A stretch of DNA of 64,000 nt from Halichondria panicea (lineage: Eukaryota > Porifera > Demospongiae > Suberitida > Halichondriidae). The stretch's first letter is position 1, and the number at the start of each line of letters is the position of its first letter. Positions 3,001-60,500 of this stretch are shown here, piece by piece. Below the pieces are notes generated by a model. It did not search any database, was not told where the DNA came from, and saw only the letters and a list, made by a program, of their open reading frames with translations. A program made the position numbers and the translations under genes. Where the stretch lies: contig NC_087387.1 of NCBI RefSeq assembly GCF_963675165.1, forward strand, positions 1,612,501 through 1,676,500, given 5' to 3'.

Positions 3001-6000
3001 GGGCTAGCCTCCTTCACAGGCCTTGGAAGGGTACAGAGGGAAATCGTATCTACATCAGACTATTCAGTCCACAATCATTTGATTTAATTCGATTCATCAA
3101 TATCAATATAAGATACCACGTTTAAATTTAGTTCATCACTGTGTACTACTATCTTTAACAAATACACAATTCGCTCGCTTGCCTCAAACTAGCCTCGATC
3201 CCAGGCCGCCCTTCCAAGGCCTGTGAAGGAGGCTAGCCCCAAACTAGCCTCGATCCCAGGCCGCCCTTCCAAGGCCTGTGAAGGAGGCTAGCCCCAAACA
3301 TGCTCCTAGTTATCATATCCATCAGATGTTGTTGTTCAAGTGTATCTCAACGTACCATGCACGTGGGTGACCATAGTCTTGTCTTTGATAGTGTACCTAG
3401 TACTACCTACTGTAATTGAGAGTTTGGAATCGTTACTTCCCCAAGTTCTAGTGGGTACGGATCTAATTGATTGTGTCGTTACCTATGCAGTACTTGATTT
3501 ACTCTGGTACATGTACCTATTGGTACTAGCTGTGTTTCTGTAAACTAAAAATACCACCTTAGGGCGTTCATTGTGTGTACGTGCTGATCCGTACGGTTAG
3601 TTTAACAACGGTGTTATCACTCGATCAGTATCACTTGTAGTTTAGAAAGCCAGTCGTATTGTTTATGTATTGGAAGTTATAGGTTTCTCTTTAATTGTTA
3701 TGTTTAATCCCAAGAGGTAAAAACCATATCTTAGTTTAGATCAGGTCAGGCTAGTCCACTACCAAGTTAGCTATATACAGTCCATTAGTTATAGCCTTAA
3801 AAGAGAACAATAATTATATAGCTGCTCTATTCACTGCTGGTAGCCTGGTATATATAGCTAGAGTCCATTGCTAATTAGTCTATGTGTCCAAGAGTTGCTT
3901 TGAATGATGATGTCTGCTAACATGAGTCTCTACAATGGCTCTCTCGAGTTTCCGCTATGGAGACCATTAGTGTCTTTTAACTTGTCTCTATTTGTCGGAG
4001 TGTTGTTACCTACAACTCTCTTTATGAACATTTCCGTGTTTGTGGCTTTACTAAAGAGTAAAATCAATCATAAGCCATTGCTTGTCTTGTATGGATCTCT
4101 GTTGCTAGGGGTTTGTGTGGACAAGATTCTGATTTGCGTTGATCAAATTGTCAACTCTCCAAGTTATATGCGTTATTGCGAATGCATGAACTTCACTCTT
4201 GTGACTCTGGCTATGCCGAGAATTTTCTTTATAGTGTACTTTATTGTCGTGGTCACTTGTCAGAGCGTACTTCAGTTGTTGGTAATGAAAGGAAATCAAG
4301 AAGTGCAGAATAGCTACAAGAAAAGTGTGGGCTGTCTGTTGCTCTCGACTGTTGTAGCAGTTTTTTGGACTGTTTTGTTCTCTGCCAGTAGCTTTCTCAG
4401 CGAGTTTCCACTGCATTGTCACTCGTTTTGCATCGATTCACCCGATAACAGTGCTTTTGTGAGCACCACAGATTGGAGCTTATTCGTCGTTGTTGCCTTT
4501 ATTGCCTTCACTCTACTACCTTGCGTCGTAGTCACTTTGTCGGTGTCAATTTGGGCGTTTTACATATTCAAGAAAAAGTTTATAGTCCGAAACAATCCCA
4601 AGGATGCTAGTTTTAGTCGACGCATTCTCCTGTTGCCCGTATTGATGGTATCGCTGCTGTTTTGCACTAGTCTGTTGAGCTATCTGGCTACTATAGTAAC
4701 GGGTGAGATTTTGGAGAAGGATCATTTGGAACCATTTTTTGGAAACTTGGCAAATTTTATGTCTGATTTTGAGTATTTTGTGCTGGATTTGTTGCATGCC
4801 CTCTCCTGTCCTCTTGTCATTCTGTATCTTTATACTCGAGTTAAGTCAACTTGGAGGAGAATGCTGTCTTGTAAGAAAAGCGACACAATTAACAGTACTC
4901 CCGATCATTTCCACAAGAGTGACTTGTCACACACTGGAGAGTTGACCCCCACGAACTCTGTTAGCTTGTAACTATATAGAGATGACTACAATGTGCTGTG
5001 TGTACATTCTTGTGACAGTTTGTTTGTATCATGTGATATGTTTATTGTGGTACTTGTCTTTGATGGTGTTACTGTGTGTACATCAAGTTCTAGTGGGTAG
5101 GATCTAATTGATTGTCTGTCTTCCCAGTACTTGTCCTTTACCAGTACATGTACTTGTCTTTTACCAGTACATGATGTATTATTCTTCAACTCTGGTACAT
5201 GTACCTACTATTACTATATGTAATATGTTCGTGAGCTATTTCCCTGTCCTAACCCCCTCACTCACACACACACACACACCCATCCACCACACACCTACAC
5301 ACACACACACACACATACACATATACACACACACACACACAGACGCTCAACTCCCTGCAAGAGACTCTGTACGAGTGTTGGGATGACGACGCCGAGGCCC
5401 GACTGTCAGCTGCCAATGTTTCGTTACGTATGAAACAACTCATTGCGACAAACATAAACGATATTGCTCGTCAAGATAGCACCCAGACAACAGCTGTGCC
5501 AACAACCTCTATAATACCAGCTGAGGCTGTGGCTATGAACAGACCAACAGAGCATTCCCAATCCAGCCCACCCCCATACTACAGTCCAACTGATCCTATT
5601 CCATTCCAACAACAATCTGATATTTCTAGGCAAGAAAGTACTTCTGCCATTACTACACTACAATCTGATACCGTGGAAACCGACGAGCAGGCAGAACATT
5701 CTCAATCTGGACCTCCTCCTTATTATGGACCAACAGCTGAAGACTATCTTTTATTCCAGCAAACCACATTCCCGTTCAATCGAGGTCCCATTCGGGCCCA
5801 ACAGAGGCACCAAGTTTCGATGCCGCATATATGCAGTGACACTGAACATTCTCGAACCCCCCGAGGGCATATGGCTGCCCGCTGCACACACAGCCTGAGG
5901 AGCAGCTACCACTACGAGCAAGAAATGAGACAGCTGAACAATTTCAATAAGAGTGAGTCACTCTCGTTAAGGAACATGGCAACTGCTCAAGAATCTGTTG

Positions 6001-6386
6001 GCGAGATGGAGGAGGAGATTAGAGAGCTGAGTAAATCACCCTTAGGCACTACGTTGGAGGAAAGAATAGACGACATGATGAGTGAGGCAGCGACTCGCGA
6101 GGATGACAATATGGCATCACCAGATAGACAGCAGCTCGATATTTCCGATTTTACCCTAAACTTGAATTCTGATTCCGGTATTCTCAATGCACATTCTGAC
6201 CTGTCCCATTCTGATACCACTGGCCTTGTCCCTGCGGAGTCTGATACGGACGCTCTTACAAGTTCCGTGGATAGCGGAGTGCTGTCAATCGATCAAGACA
6301 AGATGGTGGAAGGAGCTACAAACTTTAGATGTCTTCCTCATACTGAGAACAATAAAAACAGTGCGTCCACTGTCACTAGTGTGTAG
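43..6386 (+). CDS. TGF-beta superfamily type II receptor kinase, unit 1 copy (5' exons outside window)
   Basis: Membrane serine/threonine kinase that should bind a TGF-beta-type ligand with a type I partner. Exons by GT-AG junctions with matching phase: 43-646, 1402-1513, 1743-1884, 2288-2421, 5343-6386. The first visible exon gives a transmembrane helix and then the kinase start with glycine loop GHGRYGFV and the VAVK lysine. Later exons give [13 protein letters not shown] (for DFG), YRYMAPEAL and [16 protein letters not shown], closest in my memory to vertebrate TGFBR2. No GS box precedes the kinase, which indicates type II. The last exon ends the kinase ([10 protein letters not shown]) and adds a tail of about 320 residues with two PPPYY motifs (5568-5582, 5712-5726). 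A polyA signal AATAAA is at 6593. The last intron holds a complete 7TM gene. Compared with unit 2 there are four extra juxtamembrane residues and a few substitutions. The ectodomain exons lie left of the window. Confidence 0.93.
1936..2078. mobile_element. MITE with CAGAGGAGGT termini, 9-bp target duplication
   Basis: A 143-bp element with inverted ends (CAGAGGAGGTCCGACAGG and its complement, extending about 45 bases through GTGCAGCTCAA). It is flanked by the 9-bp direct repeat GAGTCTACC at 1927-1935 and 2079-2087. It sits in the receptor intron after exon 1743-1884. Related elements lie at 7103, 37,045, 43,654 and 49,028. Nine-base duplications are typical of Mutator-like transposases; no transposase is encoded here. 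Confidence 0.88.
2813..2908 (+). pseudogene. Truncated duplicate of the nested 7TM gene start
   Basis: A 31-codon reading frame beginning [18 protein letters not shown] closely matches the first residues of the 7TM gene at 3904, then diverges and stops at TAG. About 350 bases upstream of each copy also match (roughly 2460-2880 against 3535-3975), so a segment with the putative promoter and first codons was duplicated inside the receptor intron. It is probably non-functional, although a short peptide cannot be excluded. Confidence 0.75.
2930..3310. repeat. Short tandem/inverted array of a 55-bp unit
   Basis: Two direct copies of a unit beginning TAGCCTCGATCCCAGGCC and ending GGAGGCTAGCCCCAAAC lie at about 3189-3300, with one inverted partial copy at about 2998-3030. 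The spacer between can fold. Unit 2 has an expanded version (44,713-45,240). The same TAGCCTCG / CGAGGCTA word recurs at 9740, 9895, 10,115, 30,424 and 39,003, so it is probably a mobile-element terminus. Confidence 0.85.
3904..4971 (+). CDS. Orphan seven-transmembrane receptor nested in receptor-kinase intron (unit 1)
   Basis: Intronless 355-residue reading frame lying wholly inside the last intron (2422-5342) of the receptor kinase gene, same strand. Seven hydrophobic segments fall at roughly residues 28-52, 60-82, 100-128, 141-165, 190-222, 240-265 and 288-318. The short N-terminus has two glycosylation sequons (NMS, NGS). Cysteines in the first and second extracellular loops (YCECMN, HCHSFC) could form the usual disulfide. 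TM3 ends in a variant without DRY, and TM7 has CPLVILYLY rather than NPxxY, then a basic K/R-rich start to a Ser/Thr-rich tail. This layout is that of a G-protein-coupled receptor, but I cannot place it in a known class; a lineage-specific receptor is likely. Ligand unknown. The unit 2 copy carries a 7-bp deletion. Confidence 0.85.
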   Translation: MMMSANMSLYNGSLEFPLWRPLVSFNLSLFVGVLLPTTLFMNISVFVALLKSKINHKPLLVLYGSLLLGVCVDKILICVDQIVNSPSYMRYCECMNFTLVTLAMPRIFFIVYFIVVVTCQSVLQLLVMKGNQEVQNSYKKSVGCLLLSTVVAVFWTVLFSASSFLSEFPLHCHSFCIDSPDNSAFVSTTDWSLFVVVAFIAFTLLPCVVVTLSVSIWAFYIFKKKFIVRNNPKDASFSRRILLLPVLMVSLLFCTSLLSYLATIVTGEILEKDHLEPFFGNLANFMSDFEYFVLDLLHALSCPLVILYLYTRVKSTWRRMLSCKKSDTINSTPDHFHKSDLSHTGELTPTNSVSL

Positions 6387-6592
6387 TAAGAAACTAAAAT
6401 AAGTTCACCTTTTTAAAATTTCACATCAATCATTTAATCATCACTCAACAACTATTTTTGTATGGCTGTGCGTAATGTTTGCATATACATGTATGTACAT
6501 GTTTGACAGAATTAATCGAACAAAAATGATAAGTAAAATAATAGCACGCAGGTAAAGGACGTACAGATAATAATTAGATAATTATACTCTCT

Positions 6593-6598
6593 AATAAA
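6593..6598 (+). promoter_or_regulatory. Polyadenylation signal of receptor gene (unit 1)
   Basis: AATAAA 207 bases after the receptor stop codon, in AT-rich sequence. The same hexamer is at 48,525 in unit 2. No better candidate lies between the stop and the next feature. Confidence 0.55.
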
Positions 6599-6639
6599 GG
6601 TTTAATTTTAATTGTTGCTATATACTATATTCATGGTTG

Positions 6640-6789
6640 CTAGTCATGATGTTCCTTGTACCACCCAGCAGCCATGTCCTTGATGGCACCCTCTTTCGGA
6701 AGGTTGGCTTTTTCTCGTGCCTTCAAAAACTCGTCCATCACATAGTTGGAGGGCATGTCTGGTATGTCGGGAAGATCGTCGGTAGTGGC
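6640..6789 (-). CDS. Candidate terminal exon of an unidentified minus-strand gene (unit 1)
   Basis: On the minus strand a CAG acceptor is followed by 49 codons and a TAG stop. The peptide is charged and looks like real coding sequence (for example DLPDIPDMPSNYVMDEF and AAGWYKEH). It is identical in unit 2 while flanking bases differ slightly. I do not recognise the family. No confident upstream exon could be joined in frame: a nearby open stretch at about 6850-6900 on the same strand does not join in phase. It is convergent with the receptor 3' end. It may be the 3' end of a nested or broken gene. Confidence 0.5.
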   Translation of the reverse strand, partial: ATTDDLPDIPDMPSNYVMDEFLKAREKANLPKEGAIKDMAAGWYKEHHD

Positions 6790-6947
6790 CTGCACATGTG
6801 TACAAAATGTATAGTATAACGTACCGTTTCACTGTATTACGTACTACATGTACTAAGCGATTCTGTGTCCTTGAATTTTCCCAGTATCTCCTCCAAAGCT
6901 ATATATTAGACAACTTTATTTTTTGTTTTCTAGTCCTTTGGTTATAG

Positions 6948-9900
6948 TTGCTATACCGACACACCACACCCACTAGCCTCCTACACCATGGTGCTCAGCC
7001 CTCCAGTGAGGGACGGTCCTTTGAGACTGTCACTATTTCCTTCATCACTGAGACAGCTGTCGTAGGGGGAATCACCAGGTGAGTTCAATTGTATTGCAGG
7101 ACCAGAGGAGGTCCGACATGCGTGCACGAATCACTACAAGTTCAGTGCATTGTGGCCAGGCATTATCACGTGACACCGCAATGACATCAATGCACTGAAC
7201 TTGTAGTGATTCGTGCACGCATGTCGCAGGACTACTGAATATTGTCCCATCCATCCATACACTTATAAGCATTGAGAACTATACGTACACGCATGCATGT
7301 AATTATCTGCTGAATTTTGTCTATCTAATGCTTGCAGCCAATACAATCACTGTCAGTGTGTATGTACGTGTATTTTGCACTGTGAACAACAACAACTGTG
7401 TACGTACACACAATGCACGTGTATCTGATTGTGCAAAAGAACAATTGAATTTTAGCTTAAAATGGCTGACTGCCAAAAAATTGTTTCAGTGCTCAATTGC
7501 CGTATTAACAATTGATCCTTTCCACAGTTTGGTGAATGTGAGTGGTGGGCTGGTGGTTGCCACGGGTTACGGGATGCTACACAGAGTCAGCTGGGACGGG
7601 AGGTTCGATGGCTCCCTCCAGATCAACCTCAGTCTAGTGCCCTTCACCACAGACCTTCTGCCAGAGACCAGAGGTAGGTGGGCCATTGGCGGGTTGAATT
7701 AAGCAACAGCGTACTGCTTACATTGCATGTACTATGGTATATGCAATAGTACATACATTTAGTAAGTGTATCGTTAGAGGGCTATTAACTGTAGGTGTGC
7801 TGGTTACCGTGTAGCAAGTTGCAGTAGCCCACAGTACTGTAGGAGGAGGGGGGGGGGGGGGATCTTTCCGGTATCTCTTTCCTTGGCAATCTGTTGTAGA
7901 AATTACAACAATGGGTAAGGAATCGTTATGATGAATTAGATGAAGTTGTATGTGAGCTCCTCCCTGACAAACAAACTGTAGTCTAGGTAACCGCCTTATC
8001 AGTCAAGTAGGCTAAAAATCTGTGTCCTTTGATGTAAGCTTTGATGTCTCTTTGTGCATATGTAGTTATAAAAAAAAAAAAAAAAAAAAAAAGAAACCTT
8101 TGACTAGCTAGGAAGAGTAGCAGCAGTAGGCAGCAGTAGTAGTAGCAGTGCAAGCAGGACTAGACTAGATTAAAAAGTTGGTGGAAAGAATAACTGACCG
8201 TTTGGACGTCACCTGGCTGCCAGACTTTCATCTGGACTCTTCCCCCTGAGTAGCTGGCCTTTCTCTAAGCCACAAAACTGAGCAAGAAGCTGAAGAAGCA
8301 GCTAGACAGAGACATGTACCTAGCCTTGAGAATTGGGAGGCGTGGCTCAACTAGTTAGCCCAGCCCAGAGGAATTGTTACCGTGGGTACTGAACAACCGT
8401 AGAAGTAGGGCTACCCCTGGCTTTACTGAATTAACTAGCTGTGTCTGCTGTCTAGTTGGACCAGATTTAGCTAGATAATGGGGTAGAGAATAGTTGAGCG
8501 GTGCTGTGTGTAGCTTGAACTGTACTGGCTGGCAAGAATCTAGTAAGCACCCTATGCACTGATAACTCGTCAGAATGGAGGGTATGTTCTAGGGATCTGG
8601 ACAGCTGTACATCCAAAGGAGCCAGGGAGTGCCAATCATCTTCTCCCAGTCTCTGACACGCTAAACAAAAGGAGCTAGAACTGGGAGTCCCAGCTAGAAT
8701 TGCTAGCCGGATCTAGACTAATAGAATGACTTGGAGGCGTGGTGAGGCGGGATCCACACTAATTGATCGACCTAAAGACGCTCCTGTTCCAGATTTCACG
8801 AATGGCAAGGAAAGGGGTATAGGCCTATTAACTGTAGGTGTGCTGGTTACCGTGTAGCAAGTTGCAGTAGCAAGTTGCAGTAGCCTTAATGTTTCTTGTT
8901 GGTAGTGTCTTAATAACCAATTTTAACAGTATTGTATGTTACTGACCAACAACTTTTGGAAGCATCTTCGAAGAGACTCAGATTCTCAGATTTGCTCTGA
9001 TTCTTTGTCTAGTTTGGTATAAATTATTTAGAGTATTGTTAGTTTTAAGGTAAGTAGTATATATAAGGTTAGATTTGTGAGAAAGTTCTTTTAAGCCGTA
9101 CAGTATAATTATTGATGTGCAGTAGTAACTAGTAACTCCAATAGAAGTTACCAGGAGTGCATGTCACTGCATTCATATCGTTTGCAGAGGATGATGATCA
9201 AAGGTTTTAGTAAATAATCTGCTATCCGTAATTTATCAATCATCTAACTTTCCTTTGGTATCTCCATCCACGTGGTTCGTTTGCAGTATTAAAACATGGT
9301 CAGTATAATACACAAAGACCATTTCTACCCAGAGTCAGAGCTGTTCCTAACAGAGTTAGCATGCTCAGGACATTCAGCCACTCTGCTGGAGGTGAGCTGG
9401 CTGAATACATAAATTGGAGATACCAAAGGAAGAGTAGATGTGCTTGAAGTGCAATTTTAAGTCTTTGTTCTCTAGTTATGGCTAATTTTACTTACAGTGA
9501 ATGCTGTTGCAGTGTCTTCAGAATCTTTCGTAGCATCATCTGACAGTTCACGCAAAGTTTCTATTCGAGTTAGCCTTGCACTAAAGTGCTAGCTTTCTGT
9601 TAGCTACAAGAGTCAGAAAAGAGTTGCAAAACTGTACCGTACTGTTAGAATGCAGTAGCCATTGCGAACTTTAACCTAGGCTATTAGACACACCCCTTTT
9701 TCTGCGAACGTTCACCTAACCGTTATAAAAGCGAAAACTTGGCCTGGGATCGAGGCTAGGTCATAATTATGAGTAAGCACTGTGCAAGATCTAGTCAGCA
9801 TCCAGAGCATGAGGCTACAAGCATAGATACCATAAATCACTATCTACACTGCAAGTTATAAGTGGGGGCGGCCCCATATCGCTGGAGGGGCCTAGCCTCG

Positions 9901-12900
9901 AGACCAGGCCATTCATTGTCTGAAAGAATGCCTGGTCAAGTTCCACGTTTAGTTGAGTCAGCGAGTGGTTAGGCATGAGTAGTTGTGAACATGATTGTGA
10001 ACTGCAAACACAACAATACTATCTAGCTGTAGTATCATAATGAGGTGAGTATGGTTGTTGCGGGCAATTATCACATTCCTGGACCAGTTTTACATTGGAA
10101 CTTGCCTGGTCTCGAGGCTAGGAGGGGCCTCAAAGCAGAGGAGGCATGACACACATCTCGTGATCTCTCTTTTAATTGCATTCCAATCTTTTTGACATCA
10201 GTTTTCAATGTAGTGTATTCCTCATAATAACTCTGTTATTCTGTGACTGAGGTTTTTCAAAGTCAAAGATAGACCCAGATCAAACTGTTTCCATTGCTGA
10301 ACCACAATGAACCCTTATTCAGATATGCTTGCTACAATGTTGAGAGCACTGCACCCTTCATAAATATATTGACGAGTTCTAGCCAGGACTCAGCTGGAGA
10401 AACACTATAATTATAGCTAGCCTTGAGAAACACATAGAGCTAGCTAGACAGTCAGTTACAAACTTTCTACAAGCCTAGCTAGGTCGCGGTAAACTGCCAG
10501 CTAAGCAAACGTCATCGCAATAGAATTCAATTATGTACCTCCAAGTGCTAGTGAAATAGGTCTGTGGGTTTCCTGGCATTGAAACGTGAGTTCAAAAATT
10601 TCTGCTGAGGGTTCTGGAGCCAAATAGCAAAAATTTGCAGCAAACATATCTTGCTATAATTCTGGTACTATAATTATATGAAGTGAAGCAGCATTTGCAA
10701 ACCAGGAGTGGAGAGATGCAGTGGTGTTAATTGTTTCTGGCTATTTTTGTTTGCAGTCCACTAGTTGTAGCCCTGCATCAAATATAATTATAAAGGCATT
10801 GTATACACACATTATTGTGTGGATGGAGAAGTTGTATAGTAAGTTTCAATGTCTGTTTCCGAATAGGTCTACATATATATATTCACAGCCTTGTCTCCCA
10901 CACATGCAGTAGTTCAATGGTAATGAATCTAGTTTTTATAGCAAACATGTGATCCTGTGACTGCAATTAGGTAGTGCAAAGATACTGTAAAGCAGTATTT
11001 GTATAGCAGGAGTGAAAAGATGCAGTGCATTGTTATATTACTGGCTATTTTGTTTGCGAGCAGTGGAGTAGCAGTGCCTATCAGCTATGCAGCAGTGCCT
11101 ATCAGCTCTGCAGTAGTGCCTATCAGCTCTGCAGCAGTGCCTGTCAGCTCTGCAGCAGAGCCTATCAGCGACTGTATCAATAGCAGCGACTACCTGAGAA
11201 TTGAAAGTTCCCTTCTGAGCAGGCCCCAAAACTTGGTAAATTTGTATCAAGCTTTCTTTCCCACGAATAGACAAGCAAGTATTTCAGTTCAAGTCACCTA
11301 TCACTTTACTGGCAACCCTACTGATATACAGTGATCTATCGATGGCTTGGCTCCTCTGTCTTGATGCTGATTCGTAGCGACTTGCTTCATTATCTCTCTC
11401 TATTCACGTACAATGTCAAGACAAATCACGCAAATATCACCCTTGACCCGATTTGTGGGTTTCCAAGTGATGACAATGTAAATACCTCAGATCCAGTACC
11501 AAGTGACTATTGCAAAGTGGCTAACAGCGCTGGTCATCATCTACTCAACAGTCTGACAGCTAATGTAAGTGCTGCAAATATAGATGTCGTAGTCTGTAGA
11601 TTAGATAACTATCGGGCTGGTTAATTAACAGGAGAGAGCTGATCAAACAGTTTTAGTATCTACAATCAGGCTCGTTTGACAAACAATTAACTGTAGGCCT
11701 CTACACTGTGCATTGGCCTCTACACTGTGCATTGTATATATATATATATACTGAGCTTTTATCTCGTATGCATACTGCAGCTTTTCTCTTATGCTGTGCA
11801 TCGGAATTCAGTGATGCACAATGGAATTGACTCGTCAATTGAAAATGGATTCTCCGTGTACGTTTTTAATACCGAAAACCTCGGTGACTATTGTATCTTT
11901 GATGAATTTAACAACTTTTTGCATTTAAGGACACTGTTGTTTGTTGCCTTTGGATTCTTGGAGCTAACGAGTGTGTTTTCCATTCCTCTGCTATTGGGTA
12001 GTATTTATGGCGAGTTTAAAAAGAAAATGAGTAGTACCGATAAAAATGGCAACGAAAATAAACTTAGATACTTTGTTTGGGCAACTCTTGTATTGATTGT
12101 ACTGATTATTCCATTGCTCTTTTGCTGTAATTTCTATGCGATTTGCAATGGCTTGAGCTCACCACGAACAAAATATAAAGACATCTTTGCAGGCTTTATA
12201 GTAATGGCTGTTTTTATGGTTGTTCTCCCTTTGGTGGACATACTAACAGCAATCGGTGTTGTGGTGATTCTTTACTGTATTGTTGGAAAAAACAACAACC
12301 CCGGGATAATGAAGATAAGCATGAGATAAACTGCTTTGGCTTTCCGGATTTTGCGAATACTGAACATAGATGCATACGTCTAAAGATTTTCGTTCATGGT
12401 GTTGCCATTTTTGTTGTAACGTGGTTCACTCAACTTGCACTTTTCAATTCTATTTATGTGTTCATTGGAGCAATAGCTGCCCCTGTGGAAACTGGCTCAC
12501 TTCTTCTCTTGTACATTACAAGCCTCTTTGCACTGATATCATTCTTCGCTGTGATCCTTAAAGTTATCCACAAAATACTACCGGTAGTAGTTGCACAACT
12601 GGCAGTAGCTGCACAACCGGCAGTAGCTGCACAACCGGCAGTAGCTACACAACCGGCAGTAGCTACACAACCGGAAGAAGATACACAACAGGGAGTAGAT
12701 ACACAACCGGCAGTAGCTACACAACCGGCAGTAGCTACACAACCGGCAGTAGCTACACAACAGGGAGTAGATACACAACAGGGAGTAGATACACAACCAA
12801 GAGGAGCACCTCCGCCAGTAACAATTACTCGTTGTCAAGGTTGTTCGGGTTTCGCCTGCTTTATACCTTTTCTACTTTTGGTTTTAGTACTGGGCTCTGG

Positions 12901-15900
12901 TATCGGTGTTTTTTTGTTTCATTCATGTACATCTATATAACATTGAACCAGGAGTACCGAAACAATCGCGGCATACTGACCTTCCTTGGGGCTCTCCTCC
13001 CCTCCCTCCTTGCATCAACCTCGGGGTATTTCTGGACGAGGATTATGCCATGCATTGGAAATAGGAACAGAGAACCACTAAGTGATATAGAAATAAGGGA
13101 ATCAATGGAGTCTCTACTAAGGATTGCCAAAAGGATAAATCCAAATTAAGACAAAACTGGTCAAGATACTACACTTAAAATGTCAGAAAATGATGGAGCT
13201 AATGGAAGTGACTTTTAAATTATTGTACCCTATACTATATTTTTCACGAGTACGTCTTCTTACTGTGTGTGTATAATTAATTCTGAATTTTGTAGATTGT
13301 ACAATAACTAGTACCAAACTGACTAACACTCTGCATTGCTATAATGGAGTATATTCTTATTCACTGCATGCATGTGTTCTATTCATTGTGTTCTTTGGCA
13401 ACTCGATTATGTGACAACACCTGTTCTGTTCTATATTTGTAGCTGGTGACTAGAATGGAATTTAATAAAAACAGTCACATGTTTTAGCCTCAAGTCTGTG
13501 AATATGTTTCATTATGCCTCGAGGCGTAGCCACATGAGGGATACGGTAAAGCTGACTGTGTGTGTGTGTGTGTGTGTGTCTGTTCCAGCTGTAACTGCTC
13601 AATGGTTGCAATGCGACGAAAACTAACAGCTTCTATAGGCTTCTAGCTACTTTCTCTTGGATTTTGATTCGTGGATTAGCAAACTAAAGCTTCTTTCTCC
13701 AGTTATGGCTACTTTGGCTCATATTGAAGGCTGTTAATTGCAGTCTCTTCAGAATATTTCGTAGCATCATTTGTTTGCACAAAGTTTCTATGAGTTAGCC
13801 TTGCACTATAAAGGTGATTATATCACAGAAAGTGACCCGGCCCTAACTAATGCAATCACTGCCCCCTTCAGTTTCCCCCCTAGCTCCCTTCAATGACCCC
13901 CTATACACTGTACTTACTTCCCTCCTATCCCCTAGTTCATGCACACTCTACCCCCTGCAGGGACCCCCCTGGGAGACAGCAGTCTCCATGCCACCCAGCT
14001 GGCCTACTCCCTGGACATGCATGGTCTCTCATTGGTCCTCTCTGATGGGAGGGGCGTGTTCCTCACCTCACGCTCCTCTCGTCTGGAGCCTCAGGAAGTG
14101 GCAGCTGTTTCCATCCCTGGCCTGACTGGAGCCACCTGTTCCGCTCTTAATGGACGCTACAGACTGGTTGCTTTCGGAAAAGAAGAGTGAGTTAAGCATG
14201 CAATTATCATTTTGAAGGTTGTATGATATCTAGTGGAGGTAGCTATCAAAGGTAACTTGTTACAAGTATTAGAATATTTTGCCTGTGAACAACTTTTACG
14301 AATGAGCCAAATCAGCAGGAATTTGACCCTTTGCGATCTAACTATTGCGTTCTGGTGTGTCGTTACCAGTACTAATTTAGGTTTTGCTAGTTGTATTTTT
14401 TGCAAGTGATCAATGCGAGCAAAGTTTAATGGTCGCAAAACATTCTAGTAACAGGATTTATGGAAGTTTGAAATGCAAAATTGGCTGCTAACAGTATTCT
14501 CCCTCCAGTGGTTCAGTGGATGTGTACTCACTGGATGATAGCAATGGCAGCTGGAGCATCTCCCACTCACTCAAGTTCTCCAGAAGTCAGTTCCCAGGTA
14601 CTGACACTCCTCCACCACAGTACTTATGTTAGACCTAGAGCACTGATTGAGCAGTGGTGTACCCATGCAAGTAGTGCCTATAGTTTTCAATCATTCTCAA
14701 TTCACACACAAAAATGTGGCCTCTTTTATAGCTGGTAAACTACCTATAGGTCTAAGATGATCATTTTTAATGTATATACATGTACGTAGGTAGGTGGTTA
14801 GTACACCACCACCGACCAGTGTGGGGCACATCCTGCTTGTAACTGCAGTGTGTAGTGGGGTACATAATTATTATAAGTGGCTATTTAGATTGCTGGCTAG
14901 CTAGGTATTGCCTGAGCAAGCAGGCAGTGCCTATTTATAATAAAAATCTCACAGCCTCATATAAAGTCACACATAAAGTCACATATGTGGTACATGTACA
15001 TGTATAATTATACATTTCTTCTTGCCCACGACAGAGACGGGACTCCAGCTGGGGAGTGTGGTGTGTGTGGAGTGGAGTGTGGGAGATGGGATGGTGGTGG
15101 GCGTGGCCTGGAGCAACGGAGGCCTCTCACTATGGACGGTGTTCGGATCTCTACTCCTTTGTTCCCATGGCGACCAGCCCGGCACACCCTCCCCGCTTAA
15201 CCCCCACTGCACTGTATTACAAAGCATTGTGAGTACTGTACATAGCAGTCAGTTAGTACATTGATTACCGTCAAGTGTCCAATACGTAGTTAATCGAATG
15301 CGAAAGACATTAATTTTACAAGCCTGATCACGTTTTTAACTATTGCGAATTGCATGCGATTGTGTGTTCTCTCCTTTGCGAGCTTTGTTTGCCACCAATG
15401 CGAAAACTTGCAATTCTCAATCAAAAGAGTCCAGTATATGGTATTGCCCTCTGTTTTGTAGTATACTTCTGAACAGACTATAATTATGTACATGTAGGTA
15501 TCATTTGAGTATGCGTGTACTACAACCTGTGTGCATGCCTAGCACATTTAGCAACTGCTACAAAACCATCCTACATGTGTATATACATGTATAGAGGTAG
15601 AGGTAGAGTATATAATACATAACACAAAGATAGTTTTAAAATTATTGTATTTGTAACACCACCACCTTTCTTTGTTCAGTGTTGGTCCTCTGACATGTAT
15701 CACTTGTGGATGCTGGCCAAGACTGCCACTGAACACACCTCTAGCGAGAAACCGACCAATCAGAGTGGAGTATCCAATAGCAACGGTGGTCAAGTGATTG
15801 TCATGGGGTTCATGAAAAACGCTATAGTCAACAACCCTATCAGTGTAAGTACAGAGTACACTTCACAGTGTCTAGTTTAGTGTCAGTGGTGTGGTGTGCA

Positions 15901-49162: not shown

Positions 49163-50027
49163 TTGCAGGACTACTGAATATTGTCCCATCCATCCATACA
49201 CTTATAAGCATTGAGAACTATACGTACACGCATGCATGTAATTATCTGCTGAATTTTGTCTATCTAATGCTTGCAGCCAATACAATCACTGTCAGTGACG
49301 TGTGTATGTACGTGTATTTTGCACTGTGAACAACAACAACTGTGTACGTACACACAATGCACGTGTATCTGATTGTGCAAAAGAACAATTGAATTTTAGC
49401 TTAAAATGGCTGACTGCCAAAAAATTGTTTCAGTGCTCAATTGCCGTATTAACAATTGATCCTTTCCACAGTTTGGTGAATGTGAGTGGTGGGCTGGTGG
49501 TTGCCACGGGTTACGGGATGCTACACAGAGTCAGCTGGGACAGGAGGTTCGATGGCTCCCTCCAGATCAACCTCAGTCTAGTGCCCTTCACCACAGACCT
49601 TCTGCCAGAGACCAGAGGTAGGTGGGCCATTGCCGGGTTGAATTGAGCAACAGTGTACTGCTTACATTGCATGTACTATGGTACATGCAGTAGTACATAC
49701 ATTTAGTAAGTGTATCGTTAGAGGGCTATTAACTGTAGGTGTGCTGGTTACCGTGTAGCAAGTTGCAGTAGCCCACAGTACTGTAGGAGGAGGGGGGGGG
49801 GGGGGGGGATCTTTCCGGTATAGGCCTATTAACTGTAGGTGTGCTGGTTACCGTGTAGCAAGTTGCAGTAGCAAGTTGCAGTAGCCTTAATGTTTCTTGT
49901 TGGTAGTGTCTTAATAACCAATTTTAACAGTATTGTATGTTACTGACCAACAACTTTTGGAAGCATCTTCGAAGAGACTCAGATTCTCAGATTTGCTCTG
50001 ATTCTTTGTCTAGTTTGGTATAAATTA

Positions 50028-50835
50028 TTATGCCTCGAGGCGTAGCCGCACGAGGGATACGGTAAAGCTGACTGTGTGTGTGTCTGTCTGTGTGTGTGTG
50101 TGTGTATTCCAGCTATAACTGCTCAACGGTTGCAATGTAACGAAAACTAACAGCTTCTATAGGCTTCTAGCCACGTTCTCTTGGATTTTGATTCGTGGAT
50201 TAGCAAACTAAAGCTTCTTTCTCGAGTTATGGCTAGTTTGACTCACATTGAAGGCTGTTGCAGTCTCTTCAGAATCTTTCATAGCATCATCTGTCCGCAC
50301 AAACTTTCTATTCAACATATGAGTTAGCCTTGCACTAAAGCGCTAGCTTTTTGTTAGCTACAATACTCAGAAAATATCTTTTAAAACAGCTCGCTAGCAG
50401 TAGCCATTTGTGAAATTGATCTCTTTGGACACACCCTTTAATTATTCCTGTGGATGTAATGCGCATGCGCGCTCATTCCCCAAAAATAATATCCCAAGAT
50501 CCTCCTGGCAGAATCATCTTTGTCTTGAGGGCCTGGTATATAAGCCACAAAACACTACCATATAACAATATAGATAACAATATGCATGTACACAGGTCTT
50601 TTCTTCTTAGATATTATATACACTGAACTACAGATCCTGGAAGAATCAATTTTCTTCTTTCTTGAGATCCTGGTAAGCCACATAATACAACAATAGATGC
50701 ATGAAAATAAGTCTTTTCTTCTCAGTGACTTTATATAGATAAGCTAACTTTAATACTAATATAACACTCTAATACTTTTAAGCGAAAGCAAAAACATGGC
50801 GAGAGGCATTAGCACAGCGCCAGCTTGAACACTAG
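50028..50835. mobile_element. Helitron-like element, full length, 808 bp (unit 2 only)
   Basis: Unit 1 reads AAATTATTTAGAG without it. The element begins TTATGCCTCGAGGCGTAGCC and ends AGCTTGAACACTAG, inserted between A and T with no target duplication. A short stem (TGGCG/CGCCA) lies about 15 bases before the 3' end and a GCCTCGAGGC palindrome at the 5' end. Non-autonomous; includes a TG microsatellite. Confidence 0.85.
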
Positions 50836-51066
50836 TTTAGAGTATTGTTAGTTTTAAGGTAAGTAGTATATATAAGGTTAGATTTGTGAGAAAGTTCTTT
50901 TAAGCCGTACAGTATAATTATTGATGTGCAGTAGTAACTAGTAACTCCAATAGAAGTTACCAGGAGTGCACACTGTATTCATATCGTTTGCAGAGGAGGA
51001 TGATCAAAGGTTTTAGTAAATAATCTGCTATCCGTAATTTATCAATCATCTAACTTTCCTTTGGTA
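50836..51066. repeat. Dispersed repeat copy (unit 2)
   Basis: Counterpart of 9011-9270; starts TTTAGAGTATTGTTAG immediately after the Helitron-like insertion. Confidence 0.85.
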
Positions 51067-52702: not shown

Positions 52703-53465
52703 TAGCCTCGTTCCCAGGCCTTACTTTTTCTTGCTGTTGTCACTGTTCATCCATAAACATAAGAAAGACATAGTGAGGCAGCAAAGAAAGAAATGGGCGT
52801 ACAGTTAAGAAAACGTAAGGCCTGGTTTGGGAAATCGCGTGATCCACAAGGATTTTTATGAACGTGGGCGATATGTAGCCCACAATCGTGACGTAAGGTA
52901 TTCTCCCACGCATTCCGAGTAAGACTGTACTGTACTGCACTGAGACAACCACCAAGCTGTGCTGCAAGTCAGATCAGAGAACCAGCGTGGCCAGCTCTGG
53001 TGGCAGTAGCTACCTGCTATATGATAATGATGACTAAGCTATTCTACTATAGCATGTAGAAAGACACAAGAAAAGGTAATAGTGATAGAATCTAAACACA
53101 CAATCTAGACTAGTAGATCATCTAGCTAAGCCTAAGGTATAGCTAGCTATAGTGCTTGCAAACTTCCAGTTCCAAGTCCATGTCCAGCTTGCTGCAGGCA
53201 AAGTTTTACTAGTCGTAGACCTCTGTGTGGGCAGTCCAACATCTCTAGCTCAGTATGCCCACGCTCATTTTCACCCTTCTACCACCCTTCTACCCTCACG
53301 CGACTTCCCGATACAGGCTCTCCTTTTTCCTAACTTTACGTCTATTTCTTTCTTTATTCCTCCAATTAATACCGTATTTTATCTCATTGAACGAATAATA
53401 CAGTATTTTATCTTATTGAACGATTGTGATAAAGAACAGAAAAAGGAGAGCCTGTGTAGAGGCTA
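52703..53465. mobile_element. 763-bp element with 9-bp target duplication (unit 2 only)
   Basis: Ends TAGCCTCGTTCCCAGGC and GCCTGTGTAGAGGCTA are imperfect inverted repeats. The 9-bp sequence GCCTTGTCT flanks it at 52,694-52,702 and 53,466-53,474; unit 1 has it once. Interior arms (GGAAATCGCGTG / CACGCGACTTCCC, GAGCCTGT / ACAGGCTC) pair as well. No transposase frame. The terminus links the widespread TAGCCTCG repeats to a mobile element. Confidence 0.88.
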
Positions 53466-53499
53466 GCCTTGTCTCCCACACACAGTAGTTCAATGGTAA

Positions 53500-54320
53500 T
53501 TATGCCTCGAGGCGTAGCCGCACGAGGGATACGGTAAAGCTGACTGTGTTGTGTGTGTCTGTGTGTGTGTGTATTCCAGCAGTAACTGCTCAACGGTTGC
53601 AATGCGACGAAAACTAACAGCTTCTATAGGCTCTAGCCACGTTCTCTTGGATTTTGATTCGTGGATTAGCAAACTAAAGCTTCTTTCTCTAGTTATGGCT
53701 AGTTTGACTCACATTAAAGGCTGTTGCAGTCTCTTCAGAATCTTTCATAGCATCATCTGCTCGCACAAACTTTCTATTCAACATATGAGTTAGCCTTGAA
53801 CTAAAGCGCTAGCTTTTTGTTAGCTACAAGACTCAGAAAATATCTGTTAAAACAGCTAGCTAGCAGTAGCCATTTGTGAAAATTGATCTCTTTGGACACA
53901 CCCTTTAATTATTGCTGTGGATGTAATGCGCATGCGCGCTCATTCCCCATGTGTGAGAAAATAATATCCAAGATCCAGATCCAGATCCTCCTGGCAGAAT
54001 CATCTTTGTCTTGAGGACTAGGGCCTGGTAAGCCATAAAACACTACCATATAACAATATTAATATAGATAACAATATGCATGTACAGGTCTTTTCTTCTT
54101 AGATATTATATACACTGAACTACAGATCCTGGAAGAATCAATTATCTTCTTTCTTGAGGTCCTGGTAAGCCACATAATACAACAATAGATGCATGTAAAT
54201 AAGTGTTTTCTTCTCAGTGACTTTATATAGATAAGCTAACTTTAGATAACATTCTAATACTTTTGAGCGAAAGCAAAAACATGGCGAGAGGCATTAGCAC
54301 AGCGCCAGCTTGAACACTAG
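53500..54320. mobile_element. Helitron-like element, full length, 821 bp (unit 2 only)
   Basis: Same ends as 50,028-50,835 (TTATGCCTCGAGG ... GAACACTAG), again between A and T without duplication: unit 1 reads GGTAATGAATCTAG. Lies 96 bases upstream of the gene B initiation codon, so it has replaced or separated the upstream promoter sequence of that copy. Confidence 0.85.
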
Positions 54321-54416
54321 TGAATCTAGTTTTTATAGCAAACATGTGATCCTGTGACTGCAATTAGGTAGTGCAAAGATACTGTAAAGCAGTATTTGTA
54401 TAGCAGGAGTGAAAAG

Positions 54417-56869
54417 ATGCAGTGCATTGTTATATTACTGGCTATTTTGTTTGCGAGCAGTGGAGTAGCAGTGCCTATCAGCTATGCAGCAGTGCCTATC
54501 AGCTCTGCAGTAGTGCCTATCAGCTCTGCAGCAGTGCCTGTCAGCTCTGCAGCAGAGCCTATCAGCGACTGTATCAATAGCAGCGACTACCTGAGAATTG
54601 AAAGTTCCCTTCTGAGCAGGCCCCAAAACTTGGTAAATTTGTATCAAGCTTTCTTTCCCACGAATAGACAAGCAAGTATTTCAGTTCAAGTCACCTATCA
54701 CTTTACTGGCAACCCTACTGATACAGTGATCTATCGATGGCTTGGCTCCTCTGTCTTGATGCTGATTCGTAGCGACTTGCTTCATTATCTCTCTCTATTC
54801 ACGTACAATGTCAAGACAAATCACGCAAATATCACCCTTGACCCGATTTGTGGGTTTCCAAGTGATGACAATGTAAATACCTCAGATCCAGTACCAAGTG
54901 ACTATTGCAAAGTGGCTAACAGCGCTGGTCATCATCTACTCAACAGTCTGACAGCTAATGTAAGTGCTGCAAATATAGATGTCGTAGTCTGTAGATTAGA
55001 TAACTATCGGGCTGGTTAATTAACAGGAGAGAGCTGATCAAACAGTTTTAGTATCTACAATCAGGCTCGTTTGACAAACAATTAACTGTAGGCCTCTACA
55101 CTGTGCATTGGCCTCTACACTGTGCATTGTATATATATATATATACTGAGCTTTTATCTCGTATATGCATACTGCAGCTTTTCTCTTATGCTGTGCATCG
55201 GAATTCAGTGATGCACAATGGAATTGACTCGTCAATTGAAAATGGATTCTCCGTGTACGTTTTTAATACCGAAAACCTCGGTGACTATTGTATCTTTGAT
55301 GAATTTAACAACTTTTTGCATTTAAGGACACTGTTGTTTGTTGCCTTTGGATTCTTGGAGCTAACGAGTGTGTTTTCCATTCCTCTGCTATTGGGTAGTA
55401 TTTATGGCGAGTTTAAAAAGAAAATGAGTAGTACCGATAAAAATGGCAACGAAAATAAACTTAGATACTTTGTTTGGGCAACTCTTGTATTGATTGTACT
55501 GATTATTCCATTGCTCTTTTGCTGTAATTTCTATGCGATTTGCAATGGCTTGAGCTCACCACGAACAAAATATAAAGACATCTGTAATGACTTTGCTAGT
55601 TAGTTATTCACTTAGTCATTTCCTGTTCTTAATGTTTCCTGTGTTGTAATGTTTACTGTTTAATTGTACATGCGCATGAGTTCTTATTACTAGTTAACAC
55701 TTCTTTTGTATATTGCTTTGTGCTCTAGCCCGGCGGCCTGCTCCTAGCGGCGCCCTTTGTGTATGGGAGCCTCTGCTCCACTGTCTTTGTTGTCTTAGTA
55801 TTTACCGTCCATGTTTTGTGCATACAGTTAGTTGATCCATGGTTGAATGTTTTAAATCTTATCTTGAACTGCCGCACGCTGCTCGGTGCACGAACTCAAC
55901 AACATCTTTGCAGGCTTTATAGTAATGGCTGTTTTTATGGTTGTTCTCCCTTTGGTGGACATACTAACAGCAATCGGTGTTGTGGGGATTCTTTACTGTA
56001 TTGTCGGAAAAAAACAACAACCCCGGGATAATGAAGATAAGCATGAGATAAACTGCTTTGGCTTTCCGGATTTTGCGAATACTGAACGTAGATGCATACG
56101 TCTAAAGATTTTCGTTCATGGTGTTGCCATTTTTGTTGTAACGTGGTTCACTCAACTTGCACTTTTCAATTCTATTTATGTGTTCATTGGAGCAATAGCT
56201 GCCCCTGTGGAAACTGGCTCACTTCTTCTCTTGTACATTACAAGCCTCTTTGCACTGATATTATTCTTCGCTGTGATCCTTAAAGTTATCCACAAAATAC
56301 TACCGGTAGTAGTTGCACAACTGGCAGTAGCTGCACAACCGGCAGTAGCTACACAACCGGCAGTAGCTACACAACCGGCAGTAGCTACACAACCGGAAGA
56401 AGATACACAACAGGGAGTAGATACACAACCGGCAGTAGCTACACAACCGGCAGTAGCTACACAACCGGCAGTAGCTACACAACAGGGAGTAGATACACAA
56501 CAGGGAGTAGATACACAACCAAGAGGAGCACCTCCGCCAGTAACAATTACTCGTTGTCAAGGTTGTTCGGGTTTCGCCTGCTTTATACCTTTTCTACTTT
56601 TGGTTTTAGTACTGGGCTCTGGTATCGGTGTTTTTGTTTCATTCATGTACATCTATATAACATTGAACCAGGAGTACCGAAACAATCGCGGCATACTGAC
56701 CTTCCTTGGGGCTCTCCTCCCCTCCCTCCTTGCATCAACCTCGGGGTATTTCTGGACGAGGATTATGCCATGCATTGGAAATAGGAACAGAGAACCACTA
56801 AGCGATATAGAAATAAGGGAATCAATGGAGTCTCTACTAAGGATTGCCAAAAGGATAAATCCAAATTAA
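54417..56869 (+). CDS. Gene B, orphan multi-pass membrane protein, open copy (unit 2)
   Basis: Nested in RIC1 intron 49618-57680. Proposed exons 54417-54959, 55178-55583, 55914-56869 give 634 residues in one frame. The ATG at 54,417 opens a signal peptide ([16 protein letters not shown]), then four imperfect VPISSA-type repeats and an ectodomain with several sequons. Seven hydrophobic segments follow; between the fifth and sixth lies a loop of about 13 six-residue repeats (PAVATQ, QQGVDT, 18-bp DNA repeats at 56,310-56,520). Intron 1 has GTAAGT/CTGCAG. Intron 2 is a 324-bp insertion absent from unit 1; if it is not spliced, the frame ends at about 55,600. The C-terminus is RIAKRINPN. No known family recognised; the 7-segment count is by eye and a channel, receptor or adhesion role cannot be told apart. 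Confidence 0.75.
55584..55907. mobile_element. 324-bp insertion that appears to form a new intron (unit 2 only)
   Basis: Unit 1 reads AAAGACATCTTTGCAGGC continuously; here ACATCT is duplicated (55,578-55,583 and 55,902-55,907) around the insert. The insert begins with GTAATG, usable as a donor, and the pre-existing host CATCTTTGCAG after the second duplication gives an acceptor. Removal of 55,584-55,913 keeps the frame (KDIC-FIVM in place of [10 protein letters not shown]). Unspliced, it brings an in-frame TAG. No clear inverted termini seen. Confidence 0.8.
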
Positions 56870-57183
56870 GACAAAACTGGTCAAGATACTACACTTAAAA
56901 TGTCAGAAAATGATGGAGCTAATGGAAGTGACTTTTAAATTATTGTACCCTATACTATATTTTTCACGAGTACGTCTTCTTACTGTGTGTGTATAATTAA
57001 TTCTGAATTTTGTAGATTGTACAATAACTAGTACCAAACTGACTAACACTCTGCATTGCTATAATGGAGTATATTCTTATTCACTGCATGCATGTGTTCT
57101 ATTCATTGTGTTCTTTGGCAACTCGATTATGTGACAACACCTGTTCTGTTCTATATTTGTAGCTGGTGACTAGAATGGAATTT

Positions 57184-57189
57184 AATAAA
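57184..57189 (+). promoter_or_regulatory. Polyadenylation signal of gene B (unit 2)
   Basis: AATAAA 315 bases after the stop, as in unit 1. Confidence 0.5.
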
Positions 57190-57231
57190 AACAGTCACAT
57201 GTTTTAGCCTCAAGTCTGTGAATATGTTTCA

Positions 57232-57532
57232 TTATGCCTCGAGGCGTAGCCACATGAGGGATACGGTAAAGCTGACTGTGTGTGTGTGTGTGTGTGTGTC
57301 TGTTCCAGCTGTAACTGCTCAATGGTTGCAATGCGACGAAAACTAACAGCTTCTATAGGCTTCTAGCTACTTTCTCTTGGATTTTGATTCGTGGATTAGC
57401 AAACTAAAGCTTCTTTCTCCAGTTATGGCTACTTTGGCTCATATTGAAGGCTGTTAATTGCAGTCTCTTCAGAATATTTCGTAGCATCATTTGTTTGCAC
57501 AAAGTTTCTATGAGTTAGCCTTGCACTATAAA
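57232..57532. mobile_element. Helitron-like family member, truncated (unit 2)
   Basis: Counterpart of 13,512-13,812 in unit 1; shares the TTATGCCTCGAGGCGTAGCC start and the same truncation. Confidence 0.75.
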
Positions 57533-60500
57533 GGTGATTATATCACAGAAAGTGACCCGGCCCTAACTAATGCAATCACTGCCCCCTTCAGTTTCCCCCC
57601 TAGCTCCCTTCAATGACCCCCTATACACTGTACTTACTTCCCTCCTATCCCCTAGTTCATGCACACTCTACCCCCTGCAGGGACCCCCCTGGGAGACAGC
57701 AGTCTCCATGCCACCCAGCTGGCCTGCTCCCTGGACATGCATGGTCTCTCATTGGTCCTCTCTGATGGGAGGGGCGTGTTCCTCACCTCACGCTCCTCTC
57801 GTCTGGAGCCTCAGGAAGTGGCAGCTGTTTCCATCCCTGGCCTGACTGGAGCCACCTGTTCCGCTCTTAATGGACGCTACAGACTGGTTGCTTTCGGAAA
57901 AGAAGAGTGAGTTAAGCATGCGATTATCATTTTGAAGGTTGTATGATATCTAGTGGAGGTAGCTATCAAAGGTAACTTGTTACAAGTATTAGAATATTTT
58001 GCCTGTGAACAACTTTTACGAATGAGCCAAATCAGCAGGAATTTGACCCTTTGCGATCTAACTATTGCGTTCTGGTGTGTCGTTACCAGTACTAATTTAG
58101 GTTTTGCTAGTTGTATTTTTTGCAAGTGATCAATGCGAGCAAAGTTTAATGGTCGCAAAACATTCTAGTAACAGGATTTATGGAAGTTTGAAATGCAAAA
58201 TTGGCTGCTAACAGTATTCTCCCTCCAGTGGTTCAGTGGATGTGTACTCACTGGATGATAGCAATGGCAGCTGGAGCATCTCCCACTCACTCAAGTTCTC
58301 CAGAAGTCAGTTCCCAGGTACTGACACTCCTCCACCACAGTACTTATGTTAGACCTAGAGCACTGATTGAGCAGTGGTGTACCCATGCAAGTAGTGCCTA
58401 TAGTTTTCAATCATTCTCAATTCACACACAAAAATGTGGCCTCTTTTATAGCTGGTAAACTACCTATAGGTCTAAGATGATCATTTTTAATGTATATACA
58501 TGTACGTAGGTAGGTGGTTAGTACACCACCACCGACCAGTGTGGGGCACATCCTGCTTGTAACTGCAGTGTGTAGTGGGGTACATAATTATTATAAGTGG
58601 CTATTTAGATTGCTGGCTAGCTAGGTATTGCCTGAGCAAGCAGGCAGTGCCTATTTATAATAAAAATCTCACAGCCTCATATAAAGTCACACATAAAGTC
58701 ACATATGTGGTACATGTACATGTATAATTATACATTTCTTCTTGCCCACGACAGAGACGGGACTCCAGCTGGGGAGTGTGGTGTGTGTGGAGTGGAGTGT
58801 GGGAGATGGGATGGTGGTGGGCGTGGCCTGGAGCAACGGAGGCCTCTCACTATGGACGGTGTTCGGGTCTCTACTCCTTTGTTCCCATGGCGACCAGCCC
58901 GGCACACCCTCCCCGCTTAACCCCCACTGCACTGTATTACAAAGCATTGTGAGTACTGTACATAGCAGTCAGTTAGTACATTGATTACCGTCAAGTGTCC
59001 AATACGTAGTTAATCGAATGCGAAAGACATTAATTTTACAAGCCTGATCATGTTTTTAACTATTGCGAATTGCATGCGATTGTGTGTTCTCTCCTTTGCG
59101 AGTCTTTTGTTCGCCACCAATGCGAAAACTTGCAATTCTCAATCAAAAGAGTCACATATCGAAACCCAGTATATGGTATTGCCCTCTGTTTTGTAGTATA
59201 CTTCTGAACAGACTATAATTATGTACATGTAGGTATCATTTGAGTATGCGTGTACTACAGCCTGTGTGCATGCCTAGTACATTTAGCAACTGCTACAAAA
59301 CCATCCTACATGTGTATATACATGTATAGAGGTAGAGGTAGAGTATATAATACATAACACAAAGATAGTTTTAAAATTATTGTATTTGTAACACCATGGC
59401 ACCTCTCTTTGTTCAGTGTTGGTCCTCTGACACGTATCACTTGTGGATGCTGGCCAAGACTGCCACTGAACACACCTCTAGCGAGAAACCGACCAATCAG
59501 AGTGGAGTATCCAATAGCAACGGTGGTCAAGTGATTGTCATGGGGTTCATGAAAAACGCTATAGTCAACAACCCTATCAGTGTAAGTACAGAGTACAGTT
59601 CTCAGTGTCCAGTTTAGTGTCTAGTTTACAGTGGTGTGGTCGTGTAGCCACTTTAATGAATAACCAAAATCTGGGACAAAGTCCATCGATTTTGTCCGAA
59701 ACAAAGGCTATTGTCGGGCGTTTTTTTCTCAAAAGTTTTGAAGATACACACCATTATTCACTTATATGCCTTCTGTAGTTATAGTGTACTTACATGTACT
59801 ATAAGTAGAATTTTGAATGTACATGTGTGTGTACGTACATGTATGTGTACCACGAAATCCTTTCAAGCCAGGACCCCCCCCTCTATCACCTGCAGGTTAA
59901 CCATAGTCATCTGTTCCTTCTCGGCTCTGACAGACTCTGCCTGAATCTGTGTAAGGTGACCACACCCACTCGGACTACAGGCGAGGCTAAAGGTCAGGCC
60001 ACACCCGCTGGGACCAGTGCAGTGTCCTCTCCGCAATGGAGGGTGGTCCAGTACCCCTCCAGCTACATGGCTCTCAACTGGCCAGTCAAGGTGGGTCTAG
60101 CATGACACAGCACACTGTTACTGTAGTGTTTAGTCACACTAATTTCTATTTGAATTGAGTTCAAACCCGAAAGTTATGTGGTCAATTATGGTATGCTTTA
60201 TGTGGTGGACAAGTATGCTTGGGACTTCTACATGGAAAATGCTAACTTTTAACTGGTTGGAGCTTACCAGCTCTACAGCATATAGATAGAAGTGCTTTTT
60301 AACAAGGAATCCAATAGTATATGAATTTCAGTGAAGTATAACAAAGTTATGACAACTTTATGAAGGTCAAACTCAACACAAATAGACTTTAGTGTGGTAG
60401 GTCTATTAGCATGACACAGTTAGTGTGGTGAGGTCACTGAAGGGAGTTGCATTTCCATACAGTGTACATTGCTTGCTATAATTATCTTTGTGGAAGCCAA

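Follow-up and report, generated by a model that had tools for sequence, protein, structure and literature searches.

In the window, i.e., the whole 64,000-nucleotide stretch of sponge DNA analysed here, a gene is present in two nearly identical copies, and a 319-bp insert breaks into the coding sequence of one of them. From its ends, its target duplication and its full-length relative elsewhere in the genome, the insert is identified as a solo LTR of a Ty3/gypsy-like retrotransposon. This LTR integrated after the two units had duplicated and probably disabled the gene copy in unit 2, a reading to which we give a probability of about 0.87. A complete Ty3/gypsy-like element would have entered the large coding exon of unit 2, making the 5-bp ACATC duplication, and recombination between its LTRs would then presumably have removed the inside of the element and left one LTR. 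The case is a clean and young one of a known kind of event, and as such not surprising. It is useful as an insertion marker and also carries a warning: an LTR beginning with TGT always puts GT at its left edge, and GT at an insertion point alone is not a splice donor.

Two paralogous units and the empty target site

The stretches from roughly 1 to 20500 (unit 1) and from 41700 to 64000 (unit 2) of the window are copies of each other. Alignment of the blocks on the two sides of the insertion point gave matches of 99.6% (10921-12186 in unit 1 with 54318-55583 in unit 2) and 98.7% (12181-15895 with 55902-59640), with 1 substitution in 1264 positions and 20 in 3707, respectively. Exactly at the insertion point unit 2 has 324 extra bases relative to unit 1, which confirmed the claim of the preliminary description that a real insertion in unit 2 faces an uninterrupted unit 1; its claim that the ancestral empty site is preserved 43 kb away was likewise borne out (Table 1). 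Since unit 1 has the empty site, the insertion is later than the unit duplication; it is also recent.

Table 1 Features of the insertion site in units 1 and 2 (window positions)
Feature	Positions	Strand	Basis or remark
Unoccupied target site ACATC, paralogous unit 1	12181..12185	+	Alignment to unit 2
Unit 1 stretch with frame shifted relative to unit 2	12286..12910	+	Two homopolymer differences
Interrupted host exon, 5' part, up to KDI	55175..55582	+	Start placed where the family alignment begins; exact exon start presumed
Target site duplication ACATC, left copy	55578..55582	.	Equals the empty site 12181-12185 in unit 1
Solo LTR, 319 bp, TGTAATGA...ACTCAACA	55583..55901	+	Ends common to other copies, target duplication, full-length relative L010
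Weak cryptic donor CTA/GTTAGT inside the LTR	55599..55604	+	In frame with the acceptor at 55913
Target site duplication ACATC, right copy	55902..55906	.	Letters
TTTGCAG, host sequence proposed as 3' acceptor	55907..55913	+	Coding sequence in uninterrupted unit 1
Interrupted host exon, 3' part, open to its stop	55907..56869	+	S-to-L at 56262

The coding sequence of unit 1 had been described as uninterrupted through KDIFAGF; it is open that far, but two frameshifts follow further on, unit 1 having one A fewer than unit 2 near 12286 and an extra TT at 12909-12910. These frameshifts lie in homopolymers and could be either real decay or sequencing or assembly errors. Other sites at which the two units differ are 55986, 56005, 56088 and 56262. 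At 56262 unit 2 encodes leucine, where unit 1 and seven relatives encode serine. Taken with the frameshifts of unit 1, this substitution suggests that both gene copies may be decaying or released from constraint, although differences in homopolymers may stem from sequencing errors and a single residue carries little weight. Comparison of unit 2 with L046-L048 gave dN/dS ratios of 0.50-0.77 over the 5' part and 0.66-1.54 over the 3' part; nothing was drawn from the latter because an 18-bp coding repeat spoils the alignment there. This tandem repeat lies inside the host coding frame at 12580-12798 and 56302-56520 and encodes ATQPAV-like hexapeptides that vary among the paralogues.

A search with a 184-aa query from unit 1 found matches at eight further loci. 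Seven of these eight paralogues are open over 439-530 aa across the site and have no insert, the other (L052) being a truncated frame of 156 aa and uninformative. Three of these paralogues match the empty-site DNA over the whole 661 bases at 74-88%. That unit 1 had lost an ancestral intron was rejected on the evidence of the seven paralogues open across the site, the alignment there being loose for the more distant of them. No Pfam model scored above its cut-off for L046, for the host 3' part or for the upstream ORF at 54396-55016, and Rfam and tRNA scans of the window gave no hits.

The two units also differ by other inserts. Unit 1 has one of about 940 bp at 7870-8815 that unit 2 lacks; its ends are inverted (CTCTTTCCTTGGC / GGCAAGGAAAGG), GGTAT flanks it on either side, and it resembles a terminal-inverted-repeat DNA transposon. 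Unit 2 has two further inserts missing from unit 1, at 50030-50835 and 52703-54317; the stretches 50027-50836 and 53499-54321 resemble each other at 91%, and fragments of this repeat occur also at 13511, 24831 and 57231.

The inserted element and its relatives in the genome

The element runs from TGTAATGA to ACTCAACA, i.e., it starts with TG and ends with CA, and it is oriented in the sense of the host reading frame. Its letters permit two readings, either 318 bases within ACATCT repeats or 319 bases within ACATC repeats. The preliminary description had adopted the former, with a 6-bp duplication, GT following its first copy and TTTGCAG its second; all these letters are in place, but the 5-bp reading is preferred because exact 5-bp duplications flank identical ends in 11 of 14 places where both ends of the LTR were found, the window's included. 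The sixth "duplicated" base is thus the LTR's own first T, and the GT at the start of the insert corresponds to bases 2-3 of the TGT terminus.

The LTR was searched for in the genome (39 contigs, 131 Mb), with scores computed for 40 of 97 first-look candidates, and at least 42 matches were found including that of the window, some of them pieces of one copy. The insert is therefore multi-copy, as a check proposed beforehand had asked, and a single-copy insert was rejected. The other 41 matches were taken as 35 regions (L009-L043) whose ends were inspected, and 13 of these, picked by hand, form with the window's copy the 14 two-ended places; the set excludes matches that stop short of an end, including the near-complete L019, L022, L028, L030, L033, L037, L039 and L040. 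All 14 places start with TGTAATGA and 13 end with ACTCAACA, L017 ending with ACTTAACA. The 5-bp target duplication has one mismatch in L011 and is absent from L014 and L021; in L021 the left LTR is followed by inner letters identical to those of L010 and L015.

L010 is a full-length relative: two LTRs (2000-2318 and 7274-7592) bound an element of 5593 bp with CTTAC on both sides. Its two ORFs lie on the strand of the LTR, and Pfam domains were matched with the ORFs as they stand: aspartyl protease (RVP), RVT_1 and RNase H models in the first (3643-6162, 839 aa) and integrase models in the second (6214-7239, 341 aa). An integrase placed after the reverse transcriptase and RNase H is also found in retroviruses and BEL/Pao elements. 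The best match of the first ORF among solved structures was Ty3 gag-pol (7q5b, E = 3.9e-75), followed by 4ol8; the superfamily was called from this best of 12 matches at E <= 1e-10. Over its 319 positions the window's LTR shows 1 difference from that of L009 and 2 from either LTR of L010, as many as separate the two L010 LTRs. The claim that a mobile element had inserted therefore held, the element being, by these features, a solo LTR that arrived after the unit duplication. An introner or a DNA transposon was rejected on the LTR-like ends and the full-length relative coding for gag-pol type proteins.

Some other copies have structures of their own. Later insertions have broken up the LTRs of L017 (2000-3728) and L020 (2001-4186), and 7 bp of the LTR are repeated wherever it is broken. 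L028, L037, L039 and L040, near 2000-2340, are diverged LTRs on contig C6 with common left-flanking letters (gtagattcagtt), as if one insertion had been copied together with its surroundings. An uninterrupted ORF of 614 aa (L010, 75-1919), which stops about 80 bp short of the full-length retrotransposon, encodes what we take, from its motifs, to be a RING/B-box (TRIM-like) protein.

Consequences for the host gene and splice-site tests

Read through from the 5' part of the exon, the frame of unit 2 runs into a stop at the seventh codon after KDI (KDICNDFAS, then the stop), and for this reason the gene copy is most likely disabled; productive splicing is presumably absent. A point against this reading is that unit 2, with the LTR and one duplication removed, is open over 497 codons, as a spliced gene would be; with so young an insertion, however, decay would not be expected yet.

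Compatible with a disabling insertion is the action of the LTR as a promoter or a 3' end: transcripts from upstream would terminate within it, or a new one would start there and yield the protein's 3' part (ORF 55886-56869). The sense orientation of the LTR and the opening of this 327-aa ORF at the LTR edge speak for such an effect, as do the starts and ends of transcripts that PMC12112155, in the part drawn on here, reports from within ONSEN insertions, in some cases from the LTR. AATAAA, ATTAAA and TATAAA are, however, all absent from the LTR, and we consider the effect unlikely.

If, on the other hand, the solo LTR were spliced out in frame in at least part of the transcripts, from GTTAGT at 55599 or GTAATG at 55584, it would be a very young intron, and the locus would show a solo LTR giving birth to an intron while the empty paralogue is still available. 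This is quite improbable. Donors were scored with a vertebrate-type matrix, and the yardstick was a set of introns modelled in five chaperonin-family (PF00118) genes, i.e., one protein family and only five of the chaperonin-like genes matched. These genes are split into exons, and junctions were placed by profile position, by reading frame and by the lack of stops; two matched rows (one each in the L056 and L058 genes) were unused and four gaps that lacked profile positions were passed over. A candidate intron was found at 21 of the 23 junctions tried and none at the other 2; the introns measured 55-1189 nt and their donors scored from -1.35 to 7.5. For 12 of the 21 introns there were several candidates, chosen partly with the donor matrix itself, and therefore the nine single-candidate junctions are the fairer sample: all nine have G at -1 and score at least 1.8.

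The cryptic donor inside the LTR, CTA/GTTAGT, scored -1.31, above the donor proposed at the LTR edge and at the bottom of the host range. Joined to the acceptor ending at 55913 in at least some transcripts, it would give KDICNDFASF through an in-frame, stop-free junction, i.e., a partial and accidental intron. GTTAGA donors occur in two of the single-candidate host introns, and, in the consulted part of PMC12112155, a full-length LTR element in an exon is described as spliced out in Arabidopsis. The same part of that source ascribes the exonic case to a unique context and has intronic insertions spliced out more often; moreover, the cryptic donor lacks the G at -1 of all nine single-candidate host donors, and 60% of the 15 bases before the acceptor AG are pyrimidines. 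Splicing at this site is accordingly rated very unlikely.

The preliminary description had placed the donor at the start of the insert, TCT/GTAATG (55584, LTR bases 2-7), and the end of the acceptor at 55913. That splicing would keep the exact frame and turn KDIFAGF into KDICF, three residues into one, was confirmed from the letters; GT and AG are both present, the acceptor is of acceptable form, and a length of 330 nt is within the range of the modelled host introns. The GT, however, is the usual end of such an LTR and scores like a random GT: it reached -4.57 of a possible 8.53, and 44% of the 8736 GTs of the window score as high by the same vertebrate-type matrix. There is no consensus base at -3 to -1, the base at -1 being T, and none at +5, whereas each of the 21 chosen host donors scored above -4.57 and had G at -1, at +5 or at both. 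Frame restoration is weak evidence, being expected by chance about once in 3 where a YAG is near: for 695 of 1229 hypothetical insertion points in the host exon a YAG lay no more than 40 nt away, and for 240 of the 695 the first such YAG kept the frame, or about 1 in 5 points overall (240/1229).

Nor does any other two-ended copy interrupt a recognisable host coding frame. None of at least 90 aa was found across the empty site in the 13 other two-ended places, a length below which exons escape; the longest frames were those of L015 (296 aa), L009 (188 aa) and L020 (132 aa), the rest being under 90 aa. The frames of L015 and L009 presumably have reverse-transcriptase or RNase H-like motifs.

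The intron-gain reading thus has two supports, a GT found at the edge of every such LTR and a nearby in-frame YAG. The proposal that the insert creates a spliceosomal intron in the manner of introners was not supported, splicing from the LTR edge being extremely unlikely, and the alternative offered with it, a disabling insertion, fits better.

Comparison with known insertions

Introners, in the portion of PMC9860276 used here, are treated as derived from DNA transposons and as forming introns in many genes; some families carry a 5' splice site and co-opt the 3' site, which would favour splicing from the LTR edge. The window's insert resembles introners so described in being multi-copy, with a target duplication, GT near the 5' edge and a host AG at the 3' edge. 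It differs from them in being an LTR, in having no other copy in a recognisable host frame and in its non-consensus donor.

The intronization of ONSEN in Arabidopsis concerns, as far as the cited part of PMC12112155 goes, full-length ATCOPIA78 (Copia) elements with cDNA evidence, including one exonic case spliced out. The two systems share an LTR retrotransposon landing in a gene, but the insertion described here is a solo LTR and belongs to another superfamily.

The SMART/FRetro129 elements of grasses are likewise short insertions of LTR type, some of them solo LTRs with 5-bp duplications, and lie in and near genes. Unlike the window's insert, however, these elements often sit within introns and seldom in exons (3 of 262 in rice), according to the passages of PMC3281118 considered; they changed the structure of 11 genes, for three of which full-length cDNA is described.

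With the solo LTRs of Ty3/gypsy elements (Metaviridae) the insert shares the TG..CA ends, the 5-bp duplication, the LTR size and the multi-copy state, together with a full-length genomic relative that encodes protease, reverse transcriptase, RNase H and integrase and whose reverse transcriptase is, among solved structures, most like that of Ty3. No difference from them was found in the features tested; the window's copy happens to sit in a coding exon.
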